A stretch of DNA of 64,000 nt from a virus. The notes under the pieces were generated by a model that ran no database searches, was not told the origin of the DNA, and saw nothing but the letters and a program-made list of their open reading frames with translations. The stretch is taken from positions 24,124 through 88,123 of IMG/VR virus record IMGVR_UViG_3300042475_005534; one strand, 5' to 3'. Both the position numbers and the translations under genes were made by a program. Position 1 is the first letter of the stretch. Each line of letters starts with the position of its first letter. Of this stretch, positions 6,388 to 64,000 are shown one piece after another.

Positions 6388-7395
6388 ATGAATCGTGCAC
6401 GACGAAGGATACCCCTTGGAACAAGCGCAGCACGACGCCTGCAGCAACTGAGCGCAAGAACCTCACGGCAACGACAGGGACAGTTCAGGGCCGAGCTTGA
6501 GGAGCGTCGCCAGTTCGAAGACCTAGGACTGGATCACGAGGCGGTCCAGAGAGCCAGGGCTGCTGCCTACCTAGAGGCAATGACTGGAGTCATGGAAGAG
6601 CGAAGAGAGCCGTATCAGTTAGAGATTCCTGGGATCAAGGCGACGCTTATGTCGCTGCGCTCTCGAGAACCAATGACAGATGACGAAGCCCGCGCCATGG
6701 GAATTGTTCTACCCATCGAGCCGGTTGCTAGAGGCCCAGCGGGAGAACAGATGGAAATTAACTTTGATGCACCTACGGCTGCCAATCAAATCACCCTCCT
6801 TCCGCGCCAGGTCACGGGTGAATCCGTTTCGGACTATATCGATCAGTTACCTAGACTTAGGGAACAACCAAGGACCAGCAAGGCAATGAGAGGGCTCCCA
6901 CCAGGAAACACTCGCATGGCAGGAGACCCCGCAATCCAGGCTATGGCGCTCAGTATTTTACTGGGACAGGCGGCACCAGGAGCCTATGGCTTGTACGATG
7001 CCGCGACAGGGGAAGAGAGCGGCATAGGCGAGCTGGCGATGAATTACGCCTTGACTGGCTTACCGGCCCTGGGATTCGTTGGAGGAATAGCAGGAGCTCT
7101 AGCAGCAGATCCGGCATCTCGGGCTGCGGCCGATGGATTACGCATTTGGTCAGCCAAGGCCAAGGAAGGTAAACCTCCAACGGCGGAGGAAATGGCAAGC
7201 TTTATGCAAGCCGCTAACGCAGCAGCTGCTCAGAGAATGAAGCAAAACCCAGACATGTCAAGACAGGAAGCGGTGGCCCTGACCGGGAAGAGGGGACAAC
7301 GGAATCTCATGGGAGGCGCGTTGGCGGGCACCTTGGCAGGTGGGATTCCAGCGATAATGCTCATGCAAGATTCCCCTCGGGAGCAAGAGGGTTGA
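6388..7395 (+). CDS. Hypothetical protein with glycine/alanine-rich hydrophobic segments
   Basis: 335 residues. The first 90 are strongly basic and helical (MNRARRRIPLGTSAARRLQQ...). Two hydrophobic segments follow: about residues 215-245 (ALTGLPALGFVGGIAGALA) and near the C-terminus (LMGGALAGTLAGGIPAIML). Such glycine-zipper segments are common in phage internal or ejection proteins, and similar ones appear in genes at 32.0, 43.5 and 46.4 kb here. The start follows the previous stop by two bases. Family unknown; a virion role is an inference. Confidence 0.6.
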   Translation: MNRARRRIPLGTSAARRLQQLSARTSRQRQGQFRAELEERRQFEDLGLDHEAVQRARAAAYLEAMTGVMEERREPYQLEIPGIKATLMSLRSREPMTDDEARAMGIVLPIEPVARGPAGEQMEINFDAPTAANQITLLPRQVTGESVSDYIDQLPRLREQPRTSKAMRGLPPGNTRMAGDPAIQAMALSILLGQAAPGAYGLYDAATGEESGIGELAMNYALTGLPALGFVGGIAGALAADPASRAAADGLRIWSAKAKEGKPPTAEEMASFMQAANAAAAQRMKQNPDMSRQEAVALTGKRGQRNLMGGALAGTLAGGIPAIMLMQDSPREQEG

Positions 7396-7399
7396 CCTG

Positions 7400-7519
7400 G
7401 TGACACGCAAAGCCGGAGACAAACTTGCCGCCGCCTGTTGGAAGGGCTATGAGGCTATTGGCACCAAGGTGAAAGATGGTCGCACGGTGCCGAATTGTGT
7501 ACCTGTGAAGAAAGCTTGA
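7400..7519 (+). CDS. Small CWKGY..PNCVPV protein
   Basis: 39 residues from a GTG start with AGAGGG 8 bases upstream. The sequence contains CWKGYEAIGTKVKDGRTVPN followed by CVPV, a short motif I recall from the ends of several phage proteins and from stand-alone phage peptides of unknown function. It ends in TGATG shared with the next gene, which carries another short conserved phage motif. The two are probably co-translated. Confidence 0.6.
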   Translation: MTRKAGDKLAAACWKGYEAIGTKVKDGRTVPNCVPVKKA

Positions 7520-8207: not shown

Positions 8208-9893
8208 TCACACTCTTGCGAGTACAACCTTCTCCGGCTGGTGCTGATACTTGCCATCGCGGTCCTCGTAGGTGACATCACAGGGATCCCCCTCGAAAAA
8301 CAGGAGTTGACAGATCCCTTCATTGGCGTAGATGCGGCAGTCAGCCCCTGAGGAGTTGCTGAACTCCAGGGTGAGGTGGCCTTCCCAGCCGGCCTCGGCG
8401 GGAGTTGTGTTGAGAATGATACCGCAGTTCTTGACAAAGACTCCCGCAGACAGGGCAAAGTTTCCTGTCCTGGGAGCGGCGAGGCAGTAGGTTGGATGAA
8501 GACCAGGAACGCGGCGCACATTGCAAATCTTATGGTTTGCAGCCAGCGTTCCTGCCCGGAAGCCTTCGATGATGCTGTGGAACCGGCGAAAAGCGGAGCG
8601 ATCTACGCTCAGCATCCTGGCAGCTCCACGAATGGAACCCGTAGCCAGTAGTGCGTTCGTCAGACTTTCAGAAGTGACATCTTTTCGGCGGCGAAGCGCT
8701 CCCGCGCCAGCGTGTGCCACGGCCGACTGTTTGGCCCTGGCGTCTGGCTGAAGCCAGCGCTTCTTTCTTGCCTTAGCAAGGTTTTGACGGCTCTCTTCCG
8801 AGTCGAGATAAGGACGTCGTCCCTCTAGGGCCTTGCGCTTGCTCTCGTCACAGTGCAAGGCATTCAAGATTTTTTTCCGGTGTTGCGAATCCAACGCAAA
8901 CTTCTCCGCGCTTTTCCGGCCACCATGCAAATGCCTGAGATCTTCCTGGTTGTGAAGTCGCGTGTGCTGCGCTTGCGTCAACAATGCAAGGTTGTCCGGG
9001 TGATTGTTTGTCTTAATTCCGTCTCGATGATGGACGTGCAGATCTTCGCAGTCAAGGATATCCCTGGCGACCATCCGGTGAACCGATGTGCGTGCACCTC
9101 GCCTGTCACTTCCTTTGGAGGCCAGCGCCGAAGCGTGAACCGGATCGTAAACGCCGGGATAGCCGTGGTCCTCCCAGTCGTAGAAAGCGTGCAGGGAATC
9201 CCCAGGCTGGAGGTGCTGGGCCTCTTTCTCAGTACCGTCTCGAAGCAGGAATCCGTGGTCAGGCGTGCAATGAATCAATTCTCCGTTGTCCAGTTCAACT
9301 TCAAGAAGTTGGCTTTCCTCGATAAGACGCGGCGCAACCAATTCCTGAGCGATGATTCGACCGTCCAGGACTCCGAAGCCGTACAACCTTTCTCCAGCCT
9401 TTGCTTTGTCGATCAATTCCAGAAAGGTGAAATCTCCGTCAACAAGGCGAACCTTGGTGTCACCACTGAAGCAACGCGCATAAGTGCTCTTGCCCAGGCA
9501 GATGACCGTGACATTGGCTGGGACCTTGAGCTTTTCCAGGGCGACCCCGAGTCCGTAGGAGTGGGCCGGGAGAATGAAGTAGGCCCCATCACTGTCTGAG
9601 TGCAGGGCAGCAGGCTCCAGGTTGTCGGGGTTGAACCGCTTGGGGTCCATCACCGTGCCGGGTATATGGCGGAAGATCAGGAACTCCTTGGGCGAGAGAC
9701 GCAGGTCATAGCCGTAGGAGCTGCAGCCGTAGGACAGGGCCGGGACGGTGTCGATCTCCCAGACGACCTTGTCCAGTATGGGATCAAAGGAGTAGGGATG
9801 CCTCAGCTCAATGCGGCGTACCAGCTCCGGAGTGAACGGTTCGATCATCCCAGCAGAGGCCTGCTGCTTAATCCAGCGGTCGTTCTTCAGCAT
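8208..9893 (-). CDS. dcd: dCTP deaminase interrupted by an intein
   Basis: 561-residue precursor. The exteins are residues 1-140 and 490-561 and join as [22 protein letters not shown], then LTLEFSNSS. This is the dCTP deaminase family, which converts dCTP to dUTP for dTMP synthesis. LGKSTYAR holds the catalytic serine and arginine, and E510 in LEFSN is the expected general acid/base. The intein splits this active-site motif, a common insertion point. ATG at 9893 (leader TAAACCC) is favoured because it lies just after the previous stop. Whether it also has dUTPase activity cannot be told. Confidence 0.88.
8427..9473 (-). mobile_element. Intein with HNH homing endonuclease in dcd
   Basis: 349-residue in-frame insertion, residues 141-489 of the precursor. 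Block A begins [10 protein letters not shown]; block B is CTPDHGF (T210, H213); the end is [11 protein letters not shown] followed by Cys+1. Inside is an HNH nuclease ([17 protein letters not shown], near 286-302), then arginine/lysine-rich NUMOD-like repeats and a helix-turn-helix ([18 protein letters not shown]) likely used for DNA recognition. The penultimate residue is Lys, not the usual His, so C-terminal cleavage may rely on other residues. It should splice itself out and may home into intein-free dcd genes. Confidence 0.85.
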
Positions 9894-9897
9894 GGGT

Positions 9898-10134
9898 TTA
9901 GGGCACGTAGCCCATGACGATGCCCAGGGGAACGACCCCGATCCCAATAGCCCGGATCACAACCACGCCGCCCAGGGGGTCGAACGACGAGCCAGCAAGC
10001 TTGATGATGTTGCTGGTCCAGCCGTAGGAGCTACCGCCCACGATGGCAGCGAAGAGTAAGCCAACACCGATGCTCTGAAGGCGAAAGACAATCGAAGGAC
10101 CGCGGGCCATGGGGTGAAAGGATGGGGCTTTCAT
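9898..10134 (-). CDS. Small membrane protein
   Basis: 78 residues from ATG 10134 (70 if ATG 10110, which has the leader CTTTCACCCC). Two hydrophobic helices are visible: [20 protein letters not shown] and [20 protein letters not shown], joined by a short polar loop. It probably sits in the cytoplasmic membrane. Its stop lies 4 bases before the dcd start, so the two are likely co-transcribed. Function unknown; a holin-like role is possible but nothing specific supports it. Confidence 0.55.
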
Positions 10135-24102: not shown

Positions 24103-24493
24103 CAGGGAGAGCCGCTATAGCGCGGCGGAGGATTGCTTTGTGGGCAGGTCGATAAGTTGGCACGCCGGCTTCTATGGCATCAAAGTGCGCCTCAAGCGCT
24201 TCCAAGGCCTGCTCCTTCAAGCTCGGCGGCTTGGGGCGTCGGGCGACGCGGAGATCATCGATCACGGCTTGTGGATACCACTCGGCACGTAAATGATGCA
24301 AGCATGCTTCCAGCTCAGCATCTGCAGCGGCCTGAATCTCCGGCTCGCGCTGGTCCCAGGCCCATCGGGCGGCCTGGGCAATTAAATAATCAGAGAGTTT
24401 GTCATAGTCGGGATAATCCCATGGAGCTTCTTTTCTCCATTTGACTCGCATCTCTTGAGGCGGGCTGCTGGGGTGCTGCTGTTGTTCAGTCAT
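24095..24493 (-). CDS. Phage protein with RRPKPPSLKEQALEAL motif
   Basis: 132 residues. The first part carries WAWDQREPEIQAAADAELEA and the second RRPKPPSLKEQALEALEAHF, a block I recall from small phage proteins of unknown function. Helical and charged. The start (leader TAAACCC) lies just downstream of copy 1 of a duplicated 65-base segment. Confidence 0.62.
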   Translation of the reverse strand: MTEQQQHPSSPPQEMRVKWRKEAPWDYPDYDKLSDYLIAQAARWAWDQREPEIQAAADAELEACLHHLRAEWYPQAVIDDLRVARRPKPPSLKEQALEALEAHFDAIEAGVPTYRPAHKAILRRAIAALPDG

Positions 24494-33272: not shown

Positions 33273-33704
33273 TCAGGAGGGCGGAAGACAGATCACACGA
33301 AAGCCGATGTAGTCGTCGGTATAGCCGGGCAGGTCAATGCCGCGGTGAGCCAAGCGGCGGTCTGAGGGGAGACTGTCCCAGCCGCCGCCGCGCAATACCG
33401 CCCGGCATGGTGCTTCTTCCTGGGGGAGGCACACCACGCGAAACCCGATGACGTCGTTGGCATAGCCGGGCTGGTCGCGGTAGCGGTAGACCGAGCGGCA
33501 GTTCCTGGGGAAGTTGAACCAGGAGCCACCGCGCATTGACAAGTCGCAGCGTGCGGTGGAGGCCCCTGGAGGGACGCACACCACGCGGAAACCGATGTTG
33601 TCGATTGGCTCGCCGGGTTCTCCGGGAAAGCGATGGGCAGAGCGGCAATGCCTAAGGAAGAAGTCCCAGGGACCGCCGCGTAACGCCCGATTGGGGATCG
33701 TCAT
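33273..33704 (-). CDS. Three tandem FGE/C-lectin C-lobe modules (modules 8-10)
   Basis: 143 residues made of three repeats, each RGG.W...CR.A.R..PG....GFRVV with a short CLP linker: at about 9-43, 57-92 and 104-138. This is the C-terminal lobe of the formylglycine-generating-enzyme/C-type-lectin fold, without the rest of the domain. Variable codons between the fixed motifs are mostly NNC. The ATG overlaps the previous stop (ATGA). No signal peptide. Stand-alone lobes could be binding modules or partners of the FGE core encoded two genes upstream. Confidence 0.72.
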   Translation of the reverse strand: MTIPNRALRGGPWDFFLRHCRSAHRFPGEPGEPIDNIGFRVVCVPPGASTARCDLSMRGGSWFNFPRNCRSVYRYRDQPGYANDVIGFRVVCLPQEEAPCRAVLRGGGWDSLPSDRRLAHRGIDLPGYTDDYIGFRVICLPPS

Positions 33705-34153
33705 GGTGTCATCCCCCGCGGAAGACAGATCACACGAAAGCCGAGGTCGTAGTCGGCATAGTCGGGCGAATGGGAAATGCCGCGACAGGTCGAGCGGCAC
33801 CAGGGGTAGCTGAGCTGGGCGTGGGAGCCGCCGCGCATGGTTACCTGCGTGGGCTTGACCCCCAGAGGGAGGCACACCACGCGGAAGCCCAAGCCGCTGC
33901 TGGCATAGCCGGGCTGGAAGCGTCCGAAGCCGCGGCAGGCCGAGCGGCAGAACCCGGGGTTGTTGCCCCAGGAGCCACCGCGCAGTGGCGGTAGCATCCG
34001 AGGTGGTGCCACCTCCCGAGGGAGGCACACCACGCGGAAACCGACGAGATCGTCTTGGTAGTGCGGAGCGGCGCGTCGGTAGGACAAGCGTAAATACGCC
34101 TGTTGTTCCGTCCTGAAAAACCAAGTACCGCCGCGTTGCACTTGATACGTCAT
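33701..34153 (-). CDS. Three tandem FGE/C-lectin C-lobe modules (modules 5-7)
   Basis: 150 residues: QRGGTWFFRTEQQA...GFRVVCLP, LRGGSWGNNPGFCRSACR...GFRVVCLP, and MRGGSHAQLSYPWCRSTCR...GFRVICLP. The first module is the most degenerate. ATGA overlaps couple it both to the upstream membrane protein and to the next three-module gene. It is soluble, with no signal sequence. Same reading as for its neighbour: variable lobes without the FGE core. Confidence 0.72.
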   Translation of the reverse strand: MTYQVQRGGTWFFRTEQQAYLRLSYRRAAPHYQDDLVGFRVVCLPREVAPPRMLPPLRGGSWGNNPGFCRSACRGFGRFQPGYASSGLGFRVVCLPLGVKPTQVTMRGGSHAQLSYPWCRSTCRGISHSPDYADYDLGFRVICLPRGMTP

Positions 34154-34554
34154 GACCTGCTCAGCAGGAGGAGCAGGTCAGAGCGGCGAGCTCGGGAGAC
34201 CTTGTTGCCGCGGTGCCCCCGCTCGCGAGCCAGGGCACGCAGCTGGGACACATTGAGGCTGAGGTCGATTCCATTGAGAGCGCAGCGGAAGGCTGTTAGC
34301 TCCGGGTCTTCTGTAATGGGCACAGAGAGAGTCATAGGAGGGATGGATTGGGGTTCAGGGGGAGTGAGGCCGAGGAGGTGGAGATGGAGGGCTGCTAGCT
34401 GCTGGCTGCGCTCTTCCAGGGCAAGACGCAGCTGGCCGCCGGCGGCGTAGGAGGCGTCGGCAAGATGCCAGAGCAGGGCAATAGCAATGCAGAAAAAAGG
34501 GGCGGCTTGATGCATGAAATGTCGAAGCCGGCCCCCAATCAGATCGGAATGCAT
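34150..34554 (-). CDS. Membrane/coiled-coil protein with SAP-like C-terminus
   Basis: 134 residues starting 11 bases after the FGE-core stop. It has a hydrophobic helix (APFFCIAIALLWHLADA), a coiled-coil segment (GGQLRLALEERSQQLAALHL), a proline break and a SAP-like end (NVSQLRALARERGHRG, ARRSDLLLLL). Its stop overlaps the start of the next module gene (ATGA). It may anchor the operon's products to the membrane. An internal ATG at the SAP-like part (MTLSVPITED) could give a separate 61-residue product. Confidence 0.58.
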   Translation of the reverse strand: MHSDLIGGRLRHFMHQAAPFFCIAIALLWHLADASYAAGGQLRLALEERSQQLAALHLHLLGLTPPEPQSIPPMTLSVPITEDPELTAFRCALNGIDLSLNVSQLRALARERGHRGNKVSRARRSDLLLLLSRS

Positions 34555-34564
34555 GGGCAGGGAA

Positions 34565-35284
34565 TCAATAGGGCCTGTATTCGTTGCGGCACCACTCGAA
34601 GACCTGGCCGTGCATGTCGTAGAGGCCCCAGGCATTGGGTTGGTACTGCTTGACATCGCAGGTGGAATCTGCGTTGAAGCGTGCCTGGGACTCATCGAGG
34701 GTGTCACCGAAAGCGAATTCAGTGGTGGTGCCTGCGCGGCAGGCGTATTCCCACTGTTCTTCTGTGGGGAGGGTGTAGGTCTTACCTGTAGCCCGGCTGA
34801 GGCGGGCACAGAATTCCATGGCGTCATACCAGGAGACGCATTCGACGGGGCGGTCATCGCCCTTGAAGCGTGAGGGATCGGGATTGAGATCGCGCTCGAC
34901 CTTGGGCAGGTTCTCGGCGACCCATCGCCACTGGGCTTGAGTGGTCGGAGTTTCCGCCATCTCAAAGCCCTCGTCGATGATCACCTCATGGACCGGCTTC
35001 TCATCAGAGAAAGCGGACGGTGAATCAGATCCCATCATGAAGCGCCCTGGAGCGATGGAAACCATCGGCAGGTTGAGGGCGGAAGCGGAGATGCTGTGAT
35101 TGGAGGTAGTCATGGTTCCTGAAGAAATGGAAGATGGATGGAGGAGGCGGCAGGGGCGAATCCCGATGATGGGGAGGGCGCAGGCCTTGTTGACGCTGCC
35201 CCGGAGGGTGGCACGGCAGTTGCGTGGTTCGTCACTGATCCAGGAGCCACCGCGCAGCTGCCGATGGGCGTCAAGGGCTGTCAT
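34565..35284 (-). CDS. FGE-sulfatase-type domain protein with lobe moved to the N-terminus
   Basis: 239 residues. Residues 10-47 are one C-lobe module (LRGGSWISDEPRNCRATLRG...IIGIRP). Residues 73-232 are an FGE core: IAPGRFMMGS, PVECVSWYDAMEFCARLS, LPTEEQWEYACRAGT, NAWGLYDMHGQVFEWC. The gene then stops where a normal family member continues into RGGSW...GFR. The product therefore looks circularly permuted, or incomplete and completed in trans. The ATG at 35284 overlaps the previous stop; ATG 35113 would give the core alone. Catalytic formylglycine activity is unlikely without the C-lobe. Confidence 0.75.
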   Translation of the reverse strand: MTALDAHRQLRGGSWISDEPRNCRATLRGSVNKACALPIIGIRPCRLLHPSSISSGTMTTSNHSISASALNLPMVSIAPGRFMMGSDSPSAFSDEKPVHEVIIDEGFEMAETPTTQAQWRWVAENLPKVERDLNPDPSRFKGDDRPVECVSWYDAMEFCARLSRATGKTYTLPTEEQWEYACRAGTTTEFAFGDTLDESQARFNADSTCDVKQYQPNAWGLYDMHGQVFEWCRNEYRPY

Positions 35285-35643
35285 GGCGCCACCTCCCGAG
35301 AGAGGCGGACCACACGAAAGCCGAGGCCGTAGCCGCGGTAGCTACCGACGGGCGGGTCGTCTTCGCGGAAGGCCGAGCGGCAATAGCTGGGAGCTTCGTC
35401 CCAGCCGCCGCCGCGCAGCACCGCCCGGCATGGTGCCACTTCCCGAGGGAGGCGCACCACGCGAAACCCGACGTCGGTAAGGTTTCCCTCTTCGCCTAAG
35501 ACGGCCTCACTTAGCTCTGCCTCGTGGCGGCCAGCCGAACGGCAGGTATAGGAGGCTTCGCCATAGGAACCACCGCGAATGGAGTTTCCCAGGGAAAGCG
35601 GTAAATCAAGAGACAGTAGAAAAGGGGACAAGCGATAACCCAT
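35281..35643 (-). CDS. Two tandem FGE/C-lectin C-lobe modules (modules 1-2)
   Basis: 120 residues with a short hydrophobic start (YRLSPFLLSLDLPLSLGN) and two modules: IRGGSYGEASYTCRSAGR...VGFRVVRLP and LRGGGWDEAPSYCRSAFR...LGFRVVRLS. It is the first module gene of the operon and overlaps the permuted FGE gene by ATGA. The first module has an insertion of about eight residues. Function presumed to be ligand or surface binding, by analogy with the fold. Confidence 0.7.
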   Translation of the reverse strand: MGYRLSPFLLSLDLPLSLGNSIRGGSYGEASYTCRSAGRHEAELSEAVLGEEGNLTDVGFRVVRLPREVAPCRAVLRGGGWDEAPSYCRSAFREDDPPVGSYRGYGLGFRVVRLSREVAP

Positions 35644-35675: not shown

Positions 35676-36335
35676 TCAGGAAGGGGTCACAACAGGCGCC
35701 TCTCGGATGAGCCGCAACAGGGATTCCCGCTGCCGGCGAGTTTCGGCGGCCCTGGCGGCGGCCCCGGCGGCGTCCCTGGCGGCGTCCCAGGCGGCCCAGG
35801 CGGCCCCGGCGGCGTCCCTGGCGGCGTCCCAGGCGGCCCAGGCGGCCCTGGCGGCGTCCCTGGCGGCGTCCCAGGCGGCCCAGGCGGCCCTGGCGGCGGC
35901 CCCGGCGGCGGCCCAGGCGTTTTTCTCCCAGACGTTGCCAGAAGCCAGTAAATCCATGCCATCAATAACTGGGTCAATAACGGCCTGGATTTCGAGCCGC
36001 TGAGGAGGGAGATTCCTTAGGGTTTCACCGAGGAAGGCCCAATGGATCAAGGAGAGGTCTTTACCGTCCGTAGCCACAGCGTCGGGGAAGTCGTAGAAGA
36101 ATTGCTTAGCTTCCTCGAGCGGAAGAGATTCAAAGATGTGTTCCGCGATGCGAAGAATGGACTCAGTGAGCCCAAATCGCTCCACAGCAGGAGTGGAGTC
36201 GTTTGAATGGGTCAGGCACCCGATGAAGCAGCCTTTGCCGTCTGACCAGTAATTACCCTGGACGACGGAATCCGCCGTGATGTGTTCGTGGACCTCCTGT
36301 TTGAGGAGGTCGGTGTTCTTGGTGAGGGTGGTCAT
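35676..36335 (-). CDS. Phage protein with AAWAAWDAARD repeats
   Basis: 219 residues. The N-terminal domain has a motif I recall from many phage proteins (YWSDGKGCFIGCLTHSNDST, FPDAVATDGKDLSLIHWAF). The C-terminal part is three copies of a 14-residue AAWAAWDAARDAAG-type repeat, forming a long alanine-rich helix, before RRQRESLLRLIREAP. Function unknown. It couples by ATGA to a 44-residue SAP-like gene upstream and precedes the C-lobe module operon. Confidence 0.68.
   Translation of the reverse strand: MTTLTKNTDLLKQEVHEHITADSVVQGNYWSDGKGCFIGCLTHSNDSTPAVERFGLTESILRIAEHIFESLPLEEAKQFFYDFPDAVATDGKDLSLIHWAFLGETLRNLPPQRLEIQAVIDPVIDGMDLLASGNVWEKNAWAAAGAAARAAWAAWDAARDAARAAWAAWDAARDAAGAAWAAWDAARDAAGAAARAAETRRQRESLLRLIREAPVVTPS
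35770..35895. repeat. Three tandem 42-base repeats in coding sequence
   Basis: Near-identical 42-base units beginning at 35770, 35812 and 35854 encode the 14-residue helical repeat. The near-identity of the copies suggests recent slippage or recombination, so copy number is likely to vary between relatives. Confidence 0.75.
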
Positions 36336-37088: not shown

Positions 37089-37110
37089 GGGGATTTCCAG
37101 TGAGGGGTAT

Positions 37111-37151
37111 TGAGCCGCACAACAGGCGGTGTGCACTGCTGATTTGGCTCA
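37111..37151 (-). promoter_or_regulatory. Leader hairpin element, copy 5
   Basis: Outer arms TGAGCC and GGCTCA are perfect complements; the inner stem is AGCAG/CTGTT with loop TGCACACCGC (minus strand). It precedes the 187-residue gene. A further GGGGTG...CACCCC hairpin at about 37170-37190 separates it from the previous gene. Confidence 0.75.
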
Positions 37152-37202
37152 GTGAATAGGATCAAAGGGAGGGGTGCCAGGTATGACACCCCAGAAGATA
37201 CA

Positions 37203-37472
37203 TCAAGCAGCCGCTCGCCGCAGCTGGCGAAGCGTTTGCTGATTATCGAGGCAGAGGGTGCGTGCTGTGGTGACAGCGGCGACCATCTGCTGGGTGATGG
37301 TGAGGCCATCTTGCTTGGCCCAGAGGGCATCAAGGATGACCTCACGGAGGGCTTCGATTTTGCGATCGATAGAGCCTTGGAGGACCCGCCCAGTGGAGGG
37401 GCAGGTCCAGATGCTTGCCCTTGCGAGCAAGCGTAGATCAATAGACAGAGAATGAAGGTTGTTCTCGGTCAT
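37203..37472 (-). CDS. Hypothetical helical protein
   Basis: 89 residues (MTENNLHSLSIDLRLLARAS...), helical with a basic end (TLRQLRRAAA). It has its own leader: element copy 6, then a second hairpin just before the ATG. Unrecognised. Confidence 0.58.
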   Translation of the reverse strand: MTENNLHSLSIDLRLLARASIWTCPSTGRVLQGSIDRKIEALREVILDALWAKQDGLTITQQMVAAVTTARTLCLDNQQTLRQLRRAAA

Positions 37473-37510
37473 TGAGGGGTAGCCCGGTTGCTAACCGGGG
37501 CGAAGGGATG

Positions 37511-37549
37511 TGAGCCGTAGACAGCAGGTGGCACTGCTGAGAAGGCTCA
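37511..37549 (-). promoter_or_regulatory. Leader hairpin element, copy 6
   Basis: Outer arms TGAGCC/GGCTCA, inner stem AGCAG/CTGCT, with a shortened 6-base loop TGCCAC. It begins directly after the T-run of the upstream terminator, leaving no room for a separate promoter between them. Confidence 0.75.
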
Positions 37550-37551
37550 CT

Positions 37552-37586
37552 AAAAAAGCCCCACCCGGGGGATAGCCGGATGGGGC
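37552..37586 (-). terminator. Rho-independent terminator
   Basis: Minus-strand GCCCCATCCGG / CCGGGTGGGGC stem followed by TTTTTT. It ends the 48-residue membrane-protein gene and is preceded by a GTGCCA-CATC-TGGCAC hairpin at 37597-37612. Confidence 0.8.
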
Positions 37587-37596
37587 GGGGTAGGGG

Positions 37597-37612
37597 GTGC
37601 CAGATGTGGCAC
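37597..37612. repeat. GTGCCA/TGGCAC intergenic hairpin, copy 1
   Basis: Perfect 6-base arms with a 4-base loop, found at the stop codon of three neighbouring small genes (also 37883-37898 and 38397-38412), always just upstream of a terminator. The surrounding 30 or so bases are conserved among the three copies. Confidence 0.7.
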
Positions 37613-37616
37613 TAGC

Positions 37617-37763
37617 TCATCGGTGGATGAGGGGATAGAGGGGGTCGAAGAACAGACCCATGTCGCCATGGCATAGAGCCAGGCGAAGAATGAAGCCGAG
37701 AGCCAGACACCCAGCGAGGTAGGTCTTGGGGTTGGCTTCGGCGAAGGAGGCGATGGTGCGCAT
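37617..37763 (-). CDS. 48-residue membrane protein
   Basis: MRTIASFAEANPKTYLAGCL then ALGFILRLALCHGDMGLFFD. One hydrophobic helix spans about residues 15-31. It has its own leader element upstream and terminator downstream. Function unknown. Confidence 0.58.
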   Translation of the reverse strand: MRTIASFAEANPKTYLAGCLALGFILRLALCHGDMGLFFDPLYPLIHR

Positions 37764-37798
37764 GTGAGTAGCCGGCGGCTAGCCGGGGGCAAGGGATG

Positions 37799-37837
37799 TG
37801 AGCCGTAGCAGGTGGTGTGCACTGCTGATTTGGCTCA
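37799..37837 (-). promoter_or_regulatory. Leader hairpin element, copy 7
   Basis: Minus-strand TGAGCC-AAATC-AGCAG-TGCACACCAC-CTGCT-AC-GGCTCA: outer and inner stems are both perfect. Almost identical to copy 9. It lies just behind a terminator and upstream of the 48-residue membrane gene. Confidence 0.78.
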
Positions 37838-37841
37838 ATGG

Positions 37842-37872
37842 AAAGCCCCACTTGGATGGTTCCGAGCGGGGC
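37842..37872 (-). terminator. Rho-independent terminator
   Basis: Minus-strand GCCCC...GGGGC stem with weaker inner pairs, then TTTC. It follows the 63-residue gene and directly precedes leader element copy 7. Confidence 0.6.
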
Positions 37873-37882
37873 GGGGTAGGGG

Positions 37883-37898
37883 GTGCCAGATGTGGCAC
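37883..37898. repeat. GTGCCA/TGGCAC intergenic hairpin, copy 2
   Basis: Same perfect 6-base inverted repeat as at 37597-37612, here overlapping the stop codon of the 63-residue gene. Confidence 0.7.
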
Positions 37899-38089
37899 TA
37901 GGTGTACCAGCGGGGATCATCCTCCTCCGGGGAGAGGAGCATGTCCCCTATGGGCATGAAGGAGGAGGAGGAGAAGAGATCCCATCCGGCGTTGTAGTCG
38001 GGATGGGATCGGTAGTCTCCATCGCTATCGATAGCACGCATGTGCATGCATTCGATCGCGGAGCCCATCCAGGCGTGGTTGATGCTCAT
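37898..38089 (-). CDS. Small hypothetical protein
   Basis: 63 residues (MSINHAWMGSAIECMHMRAI...), acidic C-terminal half (LLSPEEDDPRWYT). It follows the previous stop by two bases and shares its leader, so it is the second gene of a two-gene transcript. Unrecognised. Confidence 0.55.
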   Translation of the reverse strand: MSINHAWMGSAIECMHMRAIDSDGDYRSHPDYNAGWDLFSSSSFMPIGDMLLSPEEDDPRWYT

Positions 38090-38091
38090 AA

Positions 38092-38310
38092 TCAGTTGAT
38101 GACAGGGATTTCGGCTACTTGCTCACGGCAGGACGTGTCGAAGAAAGCCTGCATGGAGTGGTCATCTATGGCGTGCTCACGGCGGGATATTTCGCGGAAG
38201 ACCTCCATGAGGCGATCATCCACAGATGGGTCTTCCGTGAGGCGGTATTGGTCGGCGAGCTGGTCAGCTAGCTGATGGAGCTGGAAATCGGAAAGGGATG
38301 TAAGGGACAT
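38092..38310 (-). CDS. Small helical protein
   Basis: 72 residues from ATG 38310 (MSLTSLSDFQLHQLADQLAD...). Acidic, helical. Leader element copy 8 lies 9 bases upstream of the start. It is transcribed with the 63-residue gene. Unrecognised. Confidence 0.56.
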   Translation of the reverse strand: MSLTSLSDFQLHQLADQLADQYRLTEDPSVDDRLMEVFREISRREHAIDDHSMQAFFDTSCREQVAEIPVIN

Positions 38311-38318
38311 AGAAACGA

Positions 38319-38346
38319 AGAAGGTGGTGTCCACTGCTGAGTGGAC
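38319..38346 (-). promoter_or_regulatory. Leader hairpin element, copy 8 (variant)
   Basis: Keeps ACTCAGCAGTG and the ACACCACCT loop side, but the usual outer arms are replaced by a perfect GTCCAC/GTGGAC hairpin enclosing TCAGCA. It starts right after a T-run. Confidence 0.66.
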
Positions 38347-38351
38347 TCAGT

Positions 38352-38385
38352 AAAAAAGCCCCACTCGGATGACTCCAAGCGGGGC
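38352..38385 (-). terminator. Rho-independent terminator
   Basis: Minus-strand GCCCCGCTTGG / CCGAGTGGGGC stem followed by TTTTTT. It ends the 98-residue gene. Confidence 0.78.
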
Positions 38386-38396
38386 GGGGGTAGGGG

Positions 38397-38412
38397 GTGC
38401 CAGAGGTGGCAC
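38397..38412. repeat. GTGCCA/TGGCAC intergenic hairpin, copy 3
   Basis: Third copy of the 6-base inverted repeat, overlapping the stop of the 98-residue gene and preceding its terminator. Confidence 0.7.
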
Positions 38413-38708
38413 TAGAGGGGAGTGTGCTCATGATCAAGGGTGTCGCAGAGGCGATCCCAAATGCTCTGGAGCCTGTCGGGTCCGGAGCCCCGGAGGCTCT
38501 CCCACCAGGCATCACGGGGGCGATACCCGAAGGCATCTTTGTGTAGGTCGCTAAAGAGATCAATGCGGTAGGAATAGCCCTCGAGCGGGAAGGACTGGGT
38601 GGACCAGGCCTCCGGGGAGATATAGGAGCCGTAGATTTCGCGGTCGAAGGATTCCCGTTCTTGCCGCCAAGCAAGGTCTTCAGGTGAAAGGGTTGCGGAA
38701 TTAGTCAT
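38412..38708 (-). CDS. Hypothetical protein
   Basis: 98 residues (MTNSATLSPEDLAWRQERES...), tryptophan- and tyrosine-rich (EAWSTQSFPLEGYSYRIDLF), acidic. Single-gene unit with leader element copy 9 upstream and hairpin plus terminator downstream. Unrecognised. Confidence 0.58.
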   Translation of the reverse strand: MTNSATLSPEDLAWRQERESFDREIYGSYISPEAWSTQSFPLEGYSYRIDLFSDLHKDAFGYRPRDAWWESLRGSGPDRLQSIWDRLCDTLDHEHTPL

Positions 38709-38733
38709 GGAAATTGCGGGTAGCGAATGGATG

Positions 38734-38772
38734 TGAGCCGTAGCAGGTGGTGTGCACTGCTGATTTGGCTCA
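38734..38772 (-). promoter_or_regulatory. Leader hairpin element, copy 9
   Basis: Minus-strand TGAGCC...GGCTCA outer stem and AGCAG/CTGCT inner stem with loop TGCACACCAC, identical in these parts to copy 7. It follows a terminator and precedes the 98-residue gene. Confidence 0.78.
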
Positions 38773-38776
38773 ATGG

Positions 38777-38809
38777 AAAAAGCCCCTGATCCAGTAAAGG
38801 ACCAGAGGC
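38777..38809 (-). terminator. Rho-independent terminator
   Basis: Minus-strand GCCTCTGGTCC / GGATCAGGGGC, an 11-pair stem (two G-U pairs), then TTTTT. It lies 8 bases after the stop of the 59-residue gene. Confidence 0.82.
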
Positions 38810-38816
38810 GAAGGGA

Positions 38817-38996
38817 TCAAGCAATCGCTTGAGTCCGAAGTGTGGCGAGAAGGCGGCGAGCCCTCTCGATGCAGTAACTCGTGGACTGGGGCCATAGTCC
38901 ACGCGCTCCCTTGAGGGGGTAGACGCTAACTGCAACGGTCTCAGGATTGAGAGTGCTGAAGCGGTAGACCCGATCAGCAAGAATGACGGTAGCCAT
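38817..38996 (-). CDS. Small basic protein
   Basis: 59 residues from ATG 38996 (MATVILADRVYRFSTLNPET...), with a beta-like start and a basic helix (CIERARRLLATLRTQAIA). It is the rightmost minus-strand gene of the accessory region, with leader element copy 10 upstream and a strong terminator downstream. Unrecognised. Confidence 0.55.
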   Translation of the reverse strand: MATVILADRVYRFSTLNPETVAVSVYPLKGARGLWPQSTSYCIERARRLLATLRTQAIA

Positions 38997-39059
38997 TGAG
39001 GTTGCTGCTGCAATAGCAGTAGTTGTCGGGCGCTTATCTCCCGTGAAAGCGCTATGCTT

Positions 39060-39085
39060 CTCAACAGATGGTGTGCACTGCTGAG
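39060..39085 (-). promoter_or_regulatory. Leader hairpin element, copy 10
   Basis: Minus-strand CTCAGCAG-TGCACACCAT-CTGTTGAG, an 8-pair stem with one G-U pair, the same stem as copy 4 with a different loop end. It lies 64 bases upstream of the 59-residue gene. Confidence 0.72.
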
Positions 39086-39693
39086 TTGCTTCACTGATGA
39101 TGTGATCATGAGTAGTGCAACCGCGCTGCGTGCGTGAGTGTGTGCGAAAGGGAGCGGGAGTGGGAGCGTAGCGTAGGGAGCTAGGGAAGCGAGAGATAGC
39201 AGGTGCTGCAAGGGAAGGGGAGGATGAGAGATGTAAGGGTAAGATAGAGATAGTGAGGGTAGAGTATAAGAGTAGAGCGTAGTATAGGGAGTGTAGCAAA
39301 AGTATAGAAAGGATAAAAGGAACCAGGGAGGCATAGCATATGCCGCAACTATCGCTGCTGCTGCTGCATCCGCTGCATTGGCGCTAGCTGCTGCTATGCA
39401 TTAGCTACGCGACCTGCTGCTACGCGTTGCGGCAAGGCACGTATCCCCCCTCGCTGCTCCGCTCGCGGCGCTTGCTGCTGCTGCTGACAGGGGCGCTACA
39501 TGCCTAATCTTTTTTTTCCTCCCAGGTTCCCATTTTGCGTGGGGGGTTTTTGATGTATGGAGCGCGCCGCAAAAAATTTTCAGAATTCCATAGGGGAGCT
39601 TGCTTCTGTTGCTTGATTCATGGGGTGAAAGGCGTTATGATTCGCAGTGCGCGACACAGCATGCAAGCGCAACCAACCATCGGAGCAACCCCA
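39086..39693. other. Gene-free divergent region with purine-rich and CTG-rich tracts
   Basis: About 600 bases between the minus-strand accessory genes and the plus-strand virion block, with no convincing gene. From about 39130 to 39330 the plus strand is C-poor and rich in G, A and T; the minus strand there contains three TATACT motifs. From 39345 to 39495 it is rich in CTG/GCT runs with a CTACGCG direct repeat. Near 39510 lie an 8-T run and GGGGGGTTTTT. It must hold the promoters for both directions and may be an origin or packaging site. Confidence 0.5.
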
Positions 39694-59101: not shown

Positions 59102-62100
59102 TTAGTCAATTAAATTGTTCTCAGCATCGGCAGCGACCTGGAATGCGAGCGCATAGGAGTCGCTTACGCTGTTGATTCCCTGGATGGCATGCCTAGCCCC
59201 AATGGGACTGATGGACTCAATTAGGTTTTGTTGAATATTGGCAGAAAAGCCAACACCTGAAACAAAGCTGCAACTTGGCGCTGCTCTCATGGTTACTGGC
59301 CAGACAATGGGTGTCTCCAACCAGTTCGACCCACCATTGTATCCACGAGTATTAGCAAGAGCAACGCAATAGTATCTTTGGCAAAGCGCGAGCTCCTGCT
59401 GGGCGGGTCTTCGCCAGAACTGAGGGTCGCCAGAGCCCGGCACCACTTGTACTTGTGCAATGTCGTAGAACCCGTTTGTGATCAAACTGTTGTTCATGCT
59501 ATTCATTTGCGCCTGGGTTTGTTCTGTCCCCACAAAGCCAGATGGGCGAGTGGAATAAGCGTTCCCAGACCTCCTCCACATGCCAAGGGACCATGCAAAT
59601 TTTATGTCAACCTGGTACAGCCAATTGCTCAGTGGCTGTAAAGCGGCTTCACCAAGAGGGGTGTAGGCTGGATTGGTCTGCGTTGTAATGACCGCATTTG
59701 GATTGTACGCAGAGGCTACAACCTGCGCATAGGTTGGCATCGTGTATGTATGTGTAAACTTTTGCCAAGATGTCGTAAGATTGAAGGTTTTGCATATCGT
59801 GGGGGTCCAGAAGCGCCCTGCACCAATGGTAAAGATTTGAGATTCAGAAACCACTTGTGTCGCAGCAGAAGCCCTAGCCCAGAAGGATAAGGTCACTGTC
59901 TGACCAAGGATAGACGCCGCGTCCTCAACGTTTTGGAGTGCAAGTAGCCCAAAGCTGTCAGTAGTCAGGCTGTTCAAGCTCGTTGTCCCGGGAGATATGC
60001 TACTTGTTGCAATCCTTTGATAGTAGCTAGCGCTAAAGCTTGCTAATTCAGTTGAAGTGCATGCTTGTCTTGAAACGGTATAGGTGCCCGAGGCGTTATT
60101 AGACGCTGCAAACAGGACAGCGGAAGCCCACCTATCTGCGACCTTTGGAGGACCAGCTGTCACGGCGAGCGACCCCGACGAAGTGCGTCGCTGCCATATG
60201 TCAAAGTTTCCATTGGTGATCAGGTTGCTTGCAGTCGCGACGCCCGGAGCCGACACGCCTACATTCTGTACTGCTGTCAGCCTCCCCTTCGCGTCAACAG
60301 TGAAGGTGGGCACCTGAGACGAACTGCCATAGGTTCCTGACGCCAGGCCTGAGACGGTGGGCAGATCTGCTGTAGCCAGGGTTCTAAAACCTGGCGTTGC
60401 AGCACCACCTGTAACAGGCCCTGCAAAGACGACATTGGCGTTCTGAGTATTCAGAGCCCCGGTCAGAGTCCCAGAACCTGTTACGGGGCTATTCGAGACC
60501 GTAAAGATATTCGGCAGGGACAGTCCAACACTGGTTACTGTTCCGCCACCTCCACCCCCGCCGACTGGAGGTGCTGCCCAGCTTCCATCGGCGCGCAGGA
60601 AATTGGTTGTCCCACCCCCTGAGGCAGGAGCAAACCCGGAGGTCGTGTTGTTAAAAACACTATGGGAATGGGCTGGGATGTCGGCTGCAACAAGTGTCCT
60701 AAAACCTGGCGTTGCCGCATTACCGGCAGTGGGCCCTGCAAAGACGAGATTGGCGTTCTGAGTATTCAGAGCCCCGGTCAGAGTCCCAGAACCTGTTACG
60801 GGGCTATTCGAGACCGTAAAGATATTCGGCAGGGACAGTCCAACACTGGTTACTGTTCCGCCACCTCCACCCCCGCCGACTGGAGGTGCTGCCCAGCTTC
60901 CATCGGCGCGCAGGAAATTGGTTGTCCCACCCCCTGAGGCAGGAGCAAACCCGGAGGTCGTGTTGTTGAAAACACTATGGGAATGGGCTGTAGGTGTCCT
61001 GGCATCAGTCAATCGGGTATCGCTCCCGAGTACGACCTCGGTAGCGGCGGCATTTGTGCTCCCGCCGCCTCCCCCAGTTCCCTGGATGCCGGTCATCTTG
61101 AGCTCAGCAATCTGCATGGATGCTGTGCCGCTGACACGAAGCGTGGGGAATACCACTCGGTATTGCGTCAGTGAAGGCAAATTGCCGGGGAGCGTGATTG
61201 ACGCTGAGTCGGCCTGCCTTGCCGTAGGCAGGCTCAGGGAACCGGAAGTTAACAGCTGCCAGGATCCGCCTTGGAATCCATAAACCTGGTAAGAGGCAGG
61301 GTCTCGATCGGTAGAATCATTTGCTGTTGTAATAACAAATGATGTAAGTTGTGTTGCCGTCCCGTATGAGAACTCCAAGCCGGAGTTAGCTCCCCCAGTG
61401 TTGCGATACTTAGTGTTGATATTGTTATCAAAGGCTTTATCAGCTTCCTCCCCCGCGGATGAACCGCTGCCACCACCGCTGACCACCTGGTAACGGATGA
61501 TGACAATACCGGAACCGCCAGCAGCCCCAGGTCGGCTTTGAGAGCCACCACCACCACCACCGCCAGTATTGGCGGACCCGGCTACAGCATTCGTTGTATT
61601 GCCAGTAGCCCCAGCGCCCCCGCCAGCGGAAGCGCTGCCTCCCCCACCAGGGGACGTGTAGTCGGCACCACCACCACCGCCGCCACGGGCAACGGAAGAG
61701 CCAGTAATAGCCGATGTGATACCAGCGCCGCCGCTCCCGCCCGTCGCCGAGTCACTACTGCCGGTCGCCGCCTGTCCCGCCCCACCTGCGCCGCCACCAC
61801 CGTGTCCAGCCCAGTCACCAGCGTTTCCACTGCCGCCACCGAAGCCCTGCCCGGCCGTCCCCGCACCGGCAGTACTGCCATCGCCCACGGCGCCGCCCCC
61901 CGAGCCCCCATTGGAGGCTGCGACACTCTTTACAGCTCCTCGACCACCTCCGGTGGCGATAATCCCAGAAAATGACGAGTTACCGCCCGATGTGCCCGTG
62001 GGGCCCCCGGCACCCACAACAACTGCGTAAGTCCCCGCTGACAGGCTGAGTCGGCTTTCAGCAGACGATCCCCTCCCGCTGGTTTCGCCGACAACTGAGC

Positions 62101-64000
62101 ATCGGTAACCCCCCGCACCACCACCACCACCACCGGTGGCATCACTACCGGAGCCACCGCCGCCACCACCACCGATGACAAGATATTCGACATTGCTAAT
62201 TGCACTTGTTACGACAAAGTTTCCATCAGCTGTGAATGTGTGAACTCTGTAAGTAACGCCGCCCGGCGTTATTGTGGATTCTGTGCCGCCTGTAGCAACG
62301 CTTCCGCCCGACCCCCCATCGAGGTCGATTCCTGAAACCGAGGCCGGGGCCGGAAGAAGACTAGGAGTGCTGGAACCGCCTCCCCCTGAAGGGACGTTGC
62401 GGGTTGACGCAGTCCCCAGGCCGCTGACGGCGGTATTAGCAATGGAGATAGCCGTATTGCTTATTACAGTGATTCGACCCTTTGCGTCAACAGTCAGCGT
62501 GGGCACGCTTGATGCGCTGCCATAGCCTGCTGCCGTCAGGCCTGAGACATTAGGCAGGTCTCCAGCAGACAAAGCCCTGAAAGTAGGCGCGGCCGCAGTA
62601 GTGCCAGACGATGGACCGGCGAGCACCAGATTGGGATTCTGATTACCGGTAGACAGCGCATCTGTAATCCCGTAACCGGATATAGTCGTCGGAGTGCCGG
62701 TTATTGTGGACCACGCCTGAGTGTGTGCTGATGGTGTACGAGCATCACTCAGTCTGCTGTCGTTACCTTGACAGAAAGAATTCGCAGTGTTTCCAAATGT
62801 ACCTGTAGTTAGCAAGCCACTAGTTGTCGTAATGACTGGCAAGTTGGGATTTGTACCAATCGCTCCACCGTTGGTGATATTGCCGTGGGCGTGTGCCACG
62901 GGTGTACGAGAATCACTGAGTCTGCTGTCGTTACCTTGACAGAAAGAATTCGCAGTGTTTCCAAATGTACCTGTAGTCAGCAAGCCACTAGTTGTCGTAA
63001 TGACTGGCAAGTTGGGATTTGTACCAATCGCTCCACCGTTGGTGATATTGCCGTGGGTGTGTGCCACGGGTGTACGAGAATCACTGAGTCTGCTGTCGTT
63101 ACCTTGACAGAAAGAATTCGCAGTGTTTCCAAATGTACCTGTAGTTAGCAAGCCACTAGTTGTAGTAATGACTGGCAGGTTGGGATTTGTACCAATCGCT
63201 CCACCGTTGGTGATATTGCCGTGGGCGTGAGAACCGCTAGCCGCGTCTGTAATACCGTATCCAGATAAATTCGTCGGAGTGCCGGTTATTGTGGACCACG
63301 CCTGGGTGTGTGCTGATGGTGTACGAGCATCACTCAGTCTGCTGTCGTTACCTTGACAGAAAGAATTTGCAGTGTTTCCAAATGTACCTGTAGTTAACAA
63401 GCCACTAGTTGTCGTAATGACTGGCAAGTTGGGATTTGTACCAATCGCTCCACCGTTGGTGATATTGCCGTGGGCGTGTGCTAATGGTGTACGAGAATCA
63501 CTGAGCCTGCTGTCGTTGCCTTGACAGAAAGAATTCGCAGTGTTTCCAAATGTACCTGTAGTTAGCAAGCCACTGGTTGTCGTAATGACTGGCAAGTTGG
63601 GATTTGCACCAATCGCTCCACCGTTGGTGATATTGCCGTGGGTATGCGCTAATGGTGTACGAGCATCACTCAGTCTGCTGTCTGCACTACTAACAGCATC
63701 TGTAATACCGTATCCAGACAGATTTGTCGGAGTGCCGGTTATTGTGGACCACGCCTGGGTGTGTGCTGATGGTGTACGAGCATCACTCAGTCTGCTGTCG
63801 TTACCTTGACAGAAAGAATTTGCAGTGTTTCCAAATGTACCTGTAGTTAACAAGCCACTAGTTGTCGTAATGACTGGCAAGTTGGGATTTGTACCAATCG
63901 CTCCACCGTTGGTGATATTGCCGTGGGCGTGTGCCACGGGTGTACGAGAATCACTGAGTCTGCTGTCGTTACCTTGACAGAAAGAATTCGCAGTGTTTCC
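59102..64000 (-). CDS. Large repetitive tail fibre, 5' end beyond the window
   Basis: More than 1,630 residues; the frame stays open to the right edge. From the N-terminal side seen here: at least seven copies of a 56-residue module (NITNGGAIGTNPNLPVITTT...NSFCQGNDSRLSDARTP), a glycine-rich tip-like domain (GGGGGGAGGYRCSVVGETSG ... SGIVIIRY), a discoidin-like domain also found in the subtilisin-like protease, two copies of a 105-residue block (NNTTSGFAPASGGGTTNFLR...), and a C-terminal receptor-type domain. It should form the host-binding fibre. Confidence 0.82.
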   Translation of the reverse strand, partial: GNTANSFCQGNDSRLSDSRTPVAHAHGNITNGGAIGTNPNLPVITTTSGLLTTGTFGNTANSFCQGNDSRLSDARTPSAHTQAWSTITGTPTNLSGYGITDAVSSADSRLSDARTPLAHTHGNITNGGAIGANPNLPVITTTSGLLTTGTFGNTANSFCQGNDSRLSDSRTPLAHAHGNITNGGAIGTNPNLPVITTTSGLLTTGTFGNTANSFCQGNDSRLSDARTPSAHTQAWSTITGTPTNLSGYGITDAASGSHAHGNITNGGAIGTNPNLPVITTTSGLLTTGTFGNTANSFCQGNDSRLSDSRTPVAHTHGNITNGGAIGTNPNLPVITTTSGLLTTGTFGNTANSFCQGNDSRLSDSRTPVAHAHGNITNGGAIGTNPNLPVITTTSGLLTTGTFGNTANSFCQGNDSRLSDARTPSAHTQAWSTITGTPTTISGYGITDALSTGNQNPNLVLAGPSSGTTAAAPTFRALSAGDLPNVSGLTAAGYGSASSVPTLTVDAKGRITVISNTAISIANTAVSGLGTASTRNVPSGGGGSSTPSLLPAPASVSGIDLDGGSGGSVATGGTESTITPGGVTYRVHTFTADGNFVVTSAISNVEYLVIGGGGGGGSGSDATGGGGGGAGGYRCSVVGETSGRGSSAESRLSLSAGTYAVVVGAGGPTGTSGGNSSFSGIIATGGGRGAVKSVAASNGGSGGGAVGDGSTAGAGTAGQGFGGGSGNAGDWAGHGGGGAGGAGQAATGSSDSATGGSGGAGITSAITGSSVARGGGGGGADYTSPGGGGSASAGGGAGATGNTTNAVAGSANTGGGGGGGSQSRPGAAGGSGIVIIRYQVVSGGGSGSSAGEEADKAFDNNINTKYRNTGGANSGLEFSYGTATQLTSFVITTANDSTDRDPASYQVYGFQGGSWQLLTSGSLSLPTARQADSASITLPGNLPSLTQYRVVFPTLRVSGTASMQIAELKMTGIQGTGGGGGSTNAAATEVVLGSDTRLTDARTPTAHSHSVFNNTTSGFAPASGGGTTNFLRADGSWAAPPVGGGGGGGTVTSVGLSLPNIFTVSNSPVTGSGTLTGALNTQNANLVFAGPTAGNAATPGFRTLVAADIPAHSHSVFNNTTSGFAPASGGGTTNFLRADGSWAAPPVGGGGGGGTVTSVGLSLPNIFTVSNSPVTGSGTLTGALNTQNANVVFAGPVTGGAATPGFRTLATADLPTVSGLASGTYGSSSQVPTFTVDAKGRLTAVQNVGVSAPGVATASNLITNGNFDIWQRRTSSGSLAVTAGPPKVADRWASAVLFAASNNASGTYTVSRQACTSTELASFSASYYQRIATSSISPGTTSLNSLTTDSFGLLALQNVEDAASILGQTVTLSFWARASAATQVVSESQIFTIGAGRFWTPTICKTFNLTTSWQKFTHTYTMPTYAQVVASAYNPNAVITTQTNPAYTPLGEAALQPLSNWLYQVDIKFAWSLGMWRRSGNAYSTRPSGFVGTEQTQAQMNSMNNSLITNGFYDIAQVQVVPGSGDPQFWRRPAQQELALCQRYYCVALANTRGYNGGSNWLETPIVWPVTMRAAPSCSFVSGVGFSANIQQNLIESISPIGARHAIQGINSVSDSYALAFQVAADAENNLID
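60340..60985 (-). repeat. 315-base duplication inside the fibre gene
   Basis: Two adjacent copies of a 105-codon block, offset by 315 bases (for example TTCTGAGTATTCAGAGCCCC at 60441 and 60756), almost identical except for a few codons. It includes the GGGGGGG linker and the NSPVTGSGTLTG segment. Confidence 0.8.
62700..64000 (-). repeat. 168-base fibre repeats, seven copies
   Basis: The marker CGCAGTGTTTCC (plus strand; TGCAGTG in two copies) occurs at 62783, 62951, 63119, 63368, 63536, 63821 and 63989. Spacing is 168 bases or 168 plus an insertion of 81 or 117 bases encoding the QAWSTITGTPTNLSGYG segment. Copies are nearly identical at DNA level and continue past the window edge. Confidence 0.85.

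Follow-up and report, generated by a model that had tools for sequence, protein, structure and literature searches.

A compact operon on the minus strand of a cyanobacterial virus probably encodes a phage form of the variable proteins of diversity-generating retroelements (DGRs), in which the hypervariable lobe would have moved from the C- to the N-terminus, extra lobes would be held in additional ORFs and a DGR of the host would act in trans. The window analysed here comprises 64,000 nucleotides (positions 24,124 to 88,123 of virus record IMGVR_UViG_3300042475_005534; coordinates are those of the window unless a relative is named), and the operon extends from 35643 to 33273 with nine lobes in total, M1 to M9.

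An FGE-type core with its lobe at the N-terminus

All parts of the operon lie on the minus strand. Its first ORF (35281..35643), with two stand-alone lobes, M1 (35440-35580) and M2 (35293-35418), matches positions 214-255 of PF03781 and holds variable regions of the TR1 type, the best match of either lobe being the picocyanobacterial template repeat TR1. The following gene (34565..35284) encodes a 239-aa FGE/C-type-lectin-like core protein that carries a lobe at its N-terminus and none at its C-terminus, a circularly permuted arrangement; the N-terminal lobe, M3 (RGGSW..GIRPC; 35135..35257), is in frame with the core and matches a second type of host template, TR2 (..GVRPCCLLPP). Residues 74-237 of this ORF match positions 5-194 of the 255 positions of FGE-sulfatase PF03781 (E=2.5e-41), and the core itself (MTTSN..EYRPY; 34568..35113), which also matches phrog_18508 (E=3e-54), has a possible internal start at the ATG at 35113, with AGGA before it. 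A TGA stands directly after EWCRNEYRPY, and the missing end of PF03781 (about 207-255) is exactly the lobe; a complete FGE domain in canonical order in one chain is accordingly absent from the operon, the core ending at PF03781 position 194, and no complete core-plus-lobe gene was found elsewhere in the 88-kb record.

Downstream, a 134-aa ORF (34150..34554) with no Pfam or PHROG match lies between the core and M4, at the site that holds the first downstream lobes in the relative L006, and ends in an ATGA overlap with the next ORF. Two ORFs with three stand-alone lobes each complete the operon, one with M4, M5 and M6 (33701..34153) and one with M7, M8 and M9 (33273..33704), both matching PF03781 at positions 217-254 (E=7e-11 and 6e-13, respectively). 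The first-pass annotation, made from the letters of this stretch, had described an FGE core that stops before its RGGSW..GFR lobe, one such lobe in frame at the N-terminus and six more encoded downstream; the profile match, the stop codon and the positions of M3 and of M4 to M9 confirm each of these points, and M1 and M2 are two further, upstream lobes that it had overlooked. ATGA stop-start overlaps occur at three junctions (35284, 34153 and 33704), the first being the TGA of the M1-M2 ORF overlapping the ATG of the core gene. That other frames in the lobe arrays are open (for example, ORF 33273-34124) was rejected as a sign of dual coding, since NNC codons give no stop in any forward frame. 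Purifying selection acts on the core (dN/dS 0.08-0.20 versus three relatives) and the arrangement recurs in relatives, which together argue that it did not arise by chance.

Several features of the surrounding window were recorded in passing. The ORF just upstream of the operon (35676-36335, minus strand) contains a long AAWDAARDAA-type repeat with a 42-nt period in its C-terminal half, and between the small minus-strand genes at 37100-39100 there are repeated intergenic units, GTGTGCACTGCTGATTTGGCTCA and GGTAGGGGGTGCCAGATGTGGCACTAG, which are perhaps shared promoters or terminators. A dCTP deaminase gene with an HNH intein is located at 8208-9947 (minus strand). The tail fibre gene (59102-63937) does not adjoin the operon.

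The first and last strands lie side by side in C-type-lectin folds, and the cut in the operon's protein falls in the variable loop that links EWC to RGGSW; a permutation of the fold is plausible for these reasons, and the N-lobe of this protein, the order of which is shown to be permuted in sequence, would then fold back to complete the lectin fold. AlphaFold2 modelling of residues 1-239, which the first-pass annotation had proposed, gave a pLDDT of 71.8 and a pTM of 0.76 with a mostly good core, compared with 81.4 and 0.79 for the core alone; within the N-lobe, residues 1-24 and 29-31 have a pLDDT below 50 and the strand at 41-50 reaches about 85. The top Foldseek match was PvdO (5hha) for the full model and for the core alone, with target-normalised TM-scores of about 0.53 and about 0.44, respectively, from a sequence-order alignment that cannot show a permuted lobe. 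The nearest solved structures are PvdO, FGE and the Treponema DGR protein TvpA (2y3c).

Lobes as DGR variable regions and the probable source of their templates

The lobes share the DNA pattern TGG NNC NNC NNC CCC NGG NNC TGC CGC .. NNC CGC NNC .., in which the framework is conserved and the variable codons are free; its NNC codons are the mark of template AAC codons mutated at adenines. When 168 phage lobes were compared with the template, mismatches were found at 60% of A sites and 19% of non-A sites, and the best lobes were more sharply biased (17/26 A versus 3/91 non-A in L049; 13/27 versus 4/90 in L006). As a control, host variable regions compared with their own template repeat (TR) differed at 10-21 of 26-27 A and mostly at 0-2 of 90 non-A. 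Judged by sequence, these comparisons show the lobes to be DGR variable regions (VRs). This identity had been missed in the first-pass annotation, and it points not to an enzyme divided into two parts but to a binding protein that is C-type-lectin-like and hypervariable.

The DGR signal is weaker in the window than in its relatives. Against their templates, M5 (A 19/27, non-A 7/90; P=2e-10) and M8 (13/27 and 8/90; P=2e-5) show a strong adenine bias; the corresponding counts are 18/27 and 16/90 for M2 and 14/26 and 22/91 for M1, both against TR1, and 13/24 and 19/96 for M3 against TR2_L325 (Fisher P=0.0013). M1, M4 and M7 are more drifted from the template, with a weaker adenine bias (P 0.005-0.0007), and indels or drifted conserved positions are present in M1, M4, M6 and M7. 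Across the window, the lobes also mismatch the sampled TRs at 8-24% of non-A sites. M3 is nearer to TR2 than to TR1, so the array mixes lobes of two template types. The core, in contrast to its TR2-like N-lobe, is nearer to type-1 host targets (40-50%) than to type-2 targets (34-38%); lobe and core are thus without one clear common source, and the idea that the window core is a host target of type 2 and M3 the lobe that belongs to it was rejected. A tblastn search of the lobes against phage records returned no matches.

The source of the templates was sought with the DNA pattern of the TR across GTDB genomes, which yielded 77 loci, mostly in cyanobacteria. Cassettes with the order target, reverse transcriptase (RT) and TR were found in Cyanobium FGCU6, Cyanobium CV13-4-11, Cyanobium LBMAG and 'Microcystis elabens' FACHB-917. 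The RT in these cassettes is 377-390 aa long, its gene is followed by the TR after about 26 nt, and a second target lies close by. TR1 is rare (5/400 genomes of the family in a broad family search). The TR2 type of DGR, with its own RT and target, was seen in TR1-bearing picocyanobacterial genomes (L343 3657-6172; L344 4052-7246).

Searches for RVT_1 (PF00078) detected no RT in the window's 88-kb record or in those of 50 relatives (51 records of up to 277 kb, including ones of 172 and 190 kb, all of which may be incomplete). Since no RT was found in the phage records, an RT and TR supplied by the host are most likely. The alternative that RT and TR are encoded in unsequenced parts of the phage genomes, the similarity to host templates reflecting common ancestry, is in our judgement rather unlikely: the virus records may be incomplete and one phage contig carries an unmutated, template-like first lobe (NNN..NNN) inside a lobe ORF that is TGATG-coupled to the preceding gene (L085, 390-674), but that record is likewise without an RT, and RVT_1 was present in 0/51 phage records versus 9/9 of the TR-bearing cyanobacterial genomes searched.

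The motif GGCTGTT, often repeated, lies 38-86 nt behind all 11 of the host VRs checked (for example, L138 3417-3500 and downstream of L343 5444) and is a candidate cis element for homing. It also occurs behind some phage lobes and in 6 of the 16 phage genes of the frameshift class described below; it is absent from the window operon, and its use as proof of homing competence was rejected there.

The phage lobes thus have mismatches mainly at TR adenines, as in DGR targets, and a VR in a C-type-lectin-like fold, one of the two fold types (C-type lectin or Ig) of such targets, as judged from the PF03781, PvdO, FGE and TvpA matches. They depart from DGR targets in the position of the VR, which in those targets is C-terminal and here is N-terminal (the window, L015, L020, L051, L053 and L059) or stand-alone, and in that an RT and TR in the same genome were not seen in the records searched, which may be incomplete.

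Arrangements of core and lobe among relatives

Of the viral core genes, 125 were distinct; in 93 of these the lobe stands in frame with the core and the order is normal. Eight carry one or more in-frame N-terminal lobes with no C-lobe nearby, to which L006, with an N-lobe and split lobes, can be added, and three are of the split type, in which the core is followed closely by an ORF for the lobe alone (L018, L063 and L006). In-frame N-terminal lobes on a lobe-less core are thus present in several phage lineages (L004-L006, L015, L020, L051, L053 and L059), and their number reaches two in L015 and L020, three in L053 and four in L051. The rotated order of elements is therefore recurrent and maintained, as expected of a circular permutation at the level of sequence. 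The first-pass proposal of a core that is either circularly permuted or split holds to the extent that both arrangements recur in phages. In L059 (3738-5961), a single core is preceded by some 16 lobes spread over all three frames, the last of them in frame with the core.

Closely related pairs suggest how these lobes change. The cores of L051 and L053 are 1.1% apart and their N-lobes differ at 16/102 and 13/120 positions (11-16%), nearly all in variable codons; likewise, L023 and L025, with near-identical cores, have an identical lobe A and a lobe B that differs at 21/120 positions. Because the N-lobes of L051 and L053 diverge in variable codons beside near-identical cores, hypermutation appears to act on lobes in their N-terminal position, to which gene conversion between lobes could contribute, and this speaks for a use of the lobe at that position.

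In L004, L005 and L006 the core is 94-98% identical, the surrounding lobes are swapped and the ATGA junctions are retained; these lobe-ORF junctions are common to the window and all three relatives although the lobes differ. Such whole-lobe swaps (L004 shares M4-M9, which are identical in the two, with the window and not M1-M2, and L005 shares M3 and not M4-M9), together with identical duplicate lobes in L007 (6723 and 6867) and L016, are what would be expected if the extra lobes were an untranslated archive, copied by recombination into an expressed site as in antigenic variation. We consider this unlikely, as the ATGA coupling of the lobe ORFs survives the swaps, the lobes are open in their own frame and have starts, and M3, the only fused site in the window, is of the TR2 type, for which TR1-type cassettes are no obvious fit. 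Decay, by which the core would have lost its lobe and the array would be a graveyard of broken duplicates, accords with the damaged lobes M1, M4, M6 and M7 and with the weaker DGR signal of the window, but is improbable given the dN/dS of the core, the ATGA junctions and uninterrupted frames of four phages and the same architectures in other lineages, where the lobes are intact and apparently hypermutating.

A further arrangement, seen in relatives and not in the window, suggests programmed -1 frameshifting that selects among hypermutated lobes. In 16 of the 125 core genes the first lobe is in the -1 frame, its distance from the core being normal; no gene has it in the +1 frame. Most of the 16 genes have a second lobe 124-130 nt later in the frame of the core, and the -1 frame stops directly behind the first, lobe A. 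Of 73 host targets, by comparison, 72 are in frame and one is unclassified. An in-phase slippery heptamer is found in 10/16 off-frame genes (nine GGGAAAG and one AAAAAAG), and the other six have GGGGGAG at the same place, which is only partly of shift-prone form. GGGAAAG or AAAAAAG occupies that site in 10/16 off-frame and 0/93 in-frame genes (P=2e-10), and any slippery heptamer in 3/93 in-frame genes (P=5e-8 in comparison with the off-frame genes); these P values are too optimistic, as the 16 genes collapse into 13 clusters at 90% identity, or 6 at 80%, and are not fully independent. An SD-like GGAGG is located upstream of the slippery site in 14/16 genes by motif, nearly always at 9-10 nt, and stable GC-rich stems lie downstream, though with z-scores of -2.7 to +0.7. 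In E. coli, G_GGA_AAG is highly shift-prone, and shifting is stimulated where an internal SD lies 10 nt upstream (PMC5009743). Separate starts for the -1-frame lobes are possible in some genes, but in L068, L174, L175 and L180 the stretch from the last -1-frame stop to the lobe contains no ATG, GTG or TTG.

The most elaborate case is L007 (IMGVR_UViG_3300020197_000087; 6552-7401, equivalent to L265), in which five in-phase GGGAAAG each precede a -1-frame lobe and the sixth lobe, the last in the gene, is in frame. For its lobes 2-5 the -1 frame is open for only 27-30 nt upstream, the sole candidate start being a TTG located at the lobe or immediately ahead of it. When the skipped lobes are read in frame 0, NNC becomes NCN, and the result is a linker rich in Ser, Pro, Thr and Ala. 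Slippery sites before -1-frame lobes were also noted in L008, L021, L068 and others; the window itself has no slippery site of this kind.

Comparison with known systems and biological meaning

As known so far, DGRs are cassettes whose target is encoded in the same genome and is rewritten at its C-terminal end. Mtd of Bordetella phage BPP-1 is, like the protein described here, a phage protein with a DGR-diversified C-type lectin fold; BPP-1 encodes its own RT and TR and the VR of Mtd is C-terminal, whereas the lobe in the window is N-terminal and no RT was found in the phage record. By profile and structure search, TvpA of Treponema denticola (PDB 2y3c) and the cyanobacterial CLec VPs (PMC7517822) belong to the same fold family as the window protein and, like the phage lobes, have the VR in the RGGSW..GFR lobe with adenine-directed mismatches to the TR. 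The VRs surveyed by Vallota-Eastman et al. (2020) lie near the 3' end of CLec genes (PMC7517822), in contrast to the phage lobes, which are N-terminal or in separate ORFs and for which RT and TR were not seen in the phage. Remote DGR targets similarly have a VR without adjacent RT and TR, with an assumed action in trans, and are diversified by an RT and TR elsewhere in the same genome (PMC7517822, PMC10907252, PMC8144416); here, by contrast, target and RT would sit in two genomes, those of phage and host. According to Roux et al., their method could not detect remote targets.

The core shares its fold and the motifs MxxIPxGxFxMGS .. WEYAxRAG .. GLxDMxGNVWEWC with FGE and PvdO (PF03781; PDB 5hha, 1y1e), from which it differs by the permuted or split order and the hypervariability of the lobe; an FGE-type catalytic function is not expected of the phage protein. 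The -1 frameshifting of phage tail genes and dnaX (PMC5009743) resembles that proposed for the relatives in its slippery G GGA AAG or A AAA AAG and in the SD-like element 10 nt upstream, but the shift in the relatives would choose between two or more hypervariable lobes. In the open-licence literature we found no paper that joins DGRs and frameshifting, and none that describes permuted VRs, a choice of VRs by frameshifting or a phage target of a host DGR.

The explanation that we favour, of a phage variable protein served by a host DGR, would work as follows. A conserved FGE-type C-type-lectin-like core would carry a hypervariable, ligand-binding lobe (the VR), relocated from the C- to the N-terminus by a circular permutation with its cut in the long EWC..RGGSW loop. 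Further VR lobes, held as short ORFs in the same operon, would probably be translated by ATGA stop-start coupling and would bind the core, which would thus be produced together with several alternative lobes. Mutagenic retrohoming would have written all of these lobes, with adenine-rich sequences as templates; the template repeats and the RT would most likely be those of the picocyanobacterial host, the DGR of which would act on the phage in trans. One core would most likely present one of several hypervariable lobes, by means of the N-lobe and coupled ORFs in the window and of frameshifting in relatives. The specific proposal that translation combines one core with a choice of hypermutated lobes, whether by serial -1 frameshifting or by coupled ORFs plus an N-lobe, while a host DGR diversifies them in trans, is held more tentatively, at slightly less than an even chance. 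The product would bind a variable ligand, such as a cell surface or a competitor; that it is a virion adhesin is only a guess, because the operon does not adjoin the tail fibre gene, and it may have an intracellular role.

Weighing against the favoured explanation are the non-A mismatches of the window lobes, the identity of M4-M9 with those of L004, the absence of GGCTGTT and the mixed core and lobe types, as well as the low AlphaFold2 confidence in the first half of the N-lobe and a possible RT in missing parts of the records.

FGE-type variable-protein relatives in the Microcystis phages LMM01, MaMV-DC and Mic1 (NC_008562, NC_029002 and MN013189) are annotated as 'kinase' or 'serine/threonine kinase', which is probably an inherited misannotation. 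If the favoured explanation is true, annotation misreads both the short lobe ORFs of cyanophages and the cores labelled 'kinase'. Phages would have freed the hypervariable lobe from the position it normally occupies, making it N-terminal, stand-alone or frameshift-chosen, and would use templates and a reverse transcriptase held by the host, so that a phage would display many binding variants from one gene by means of the mutation machine of its host.
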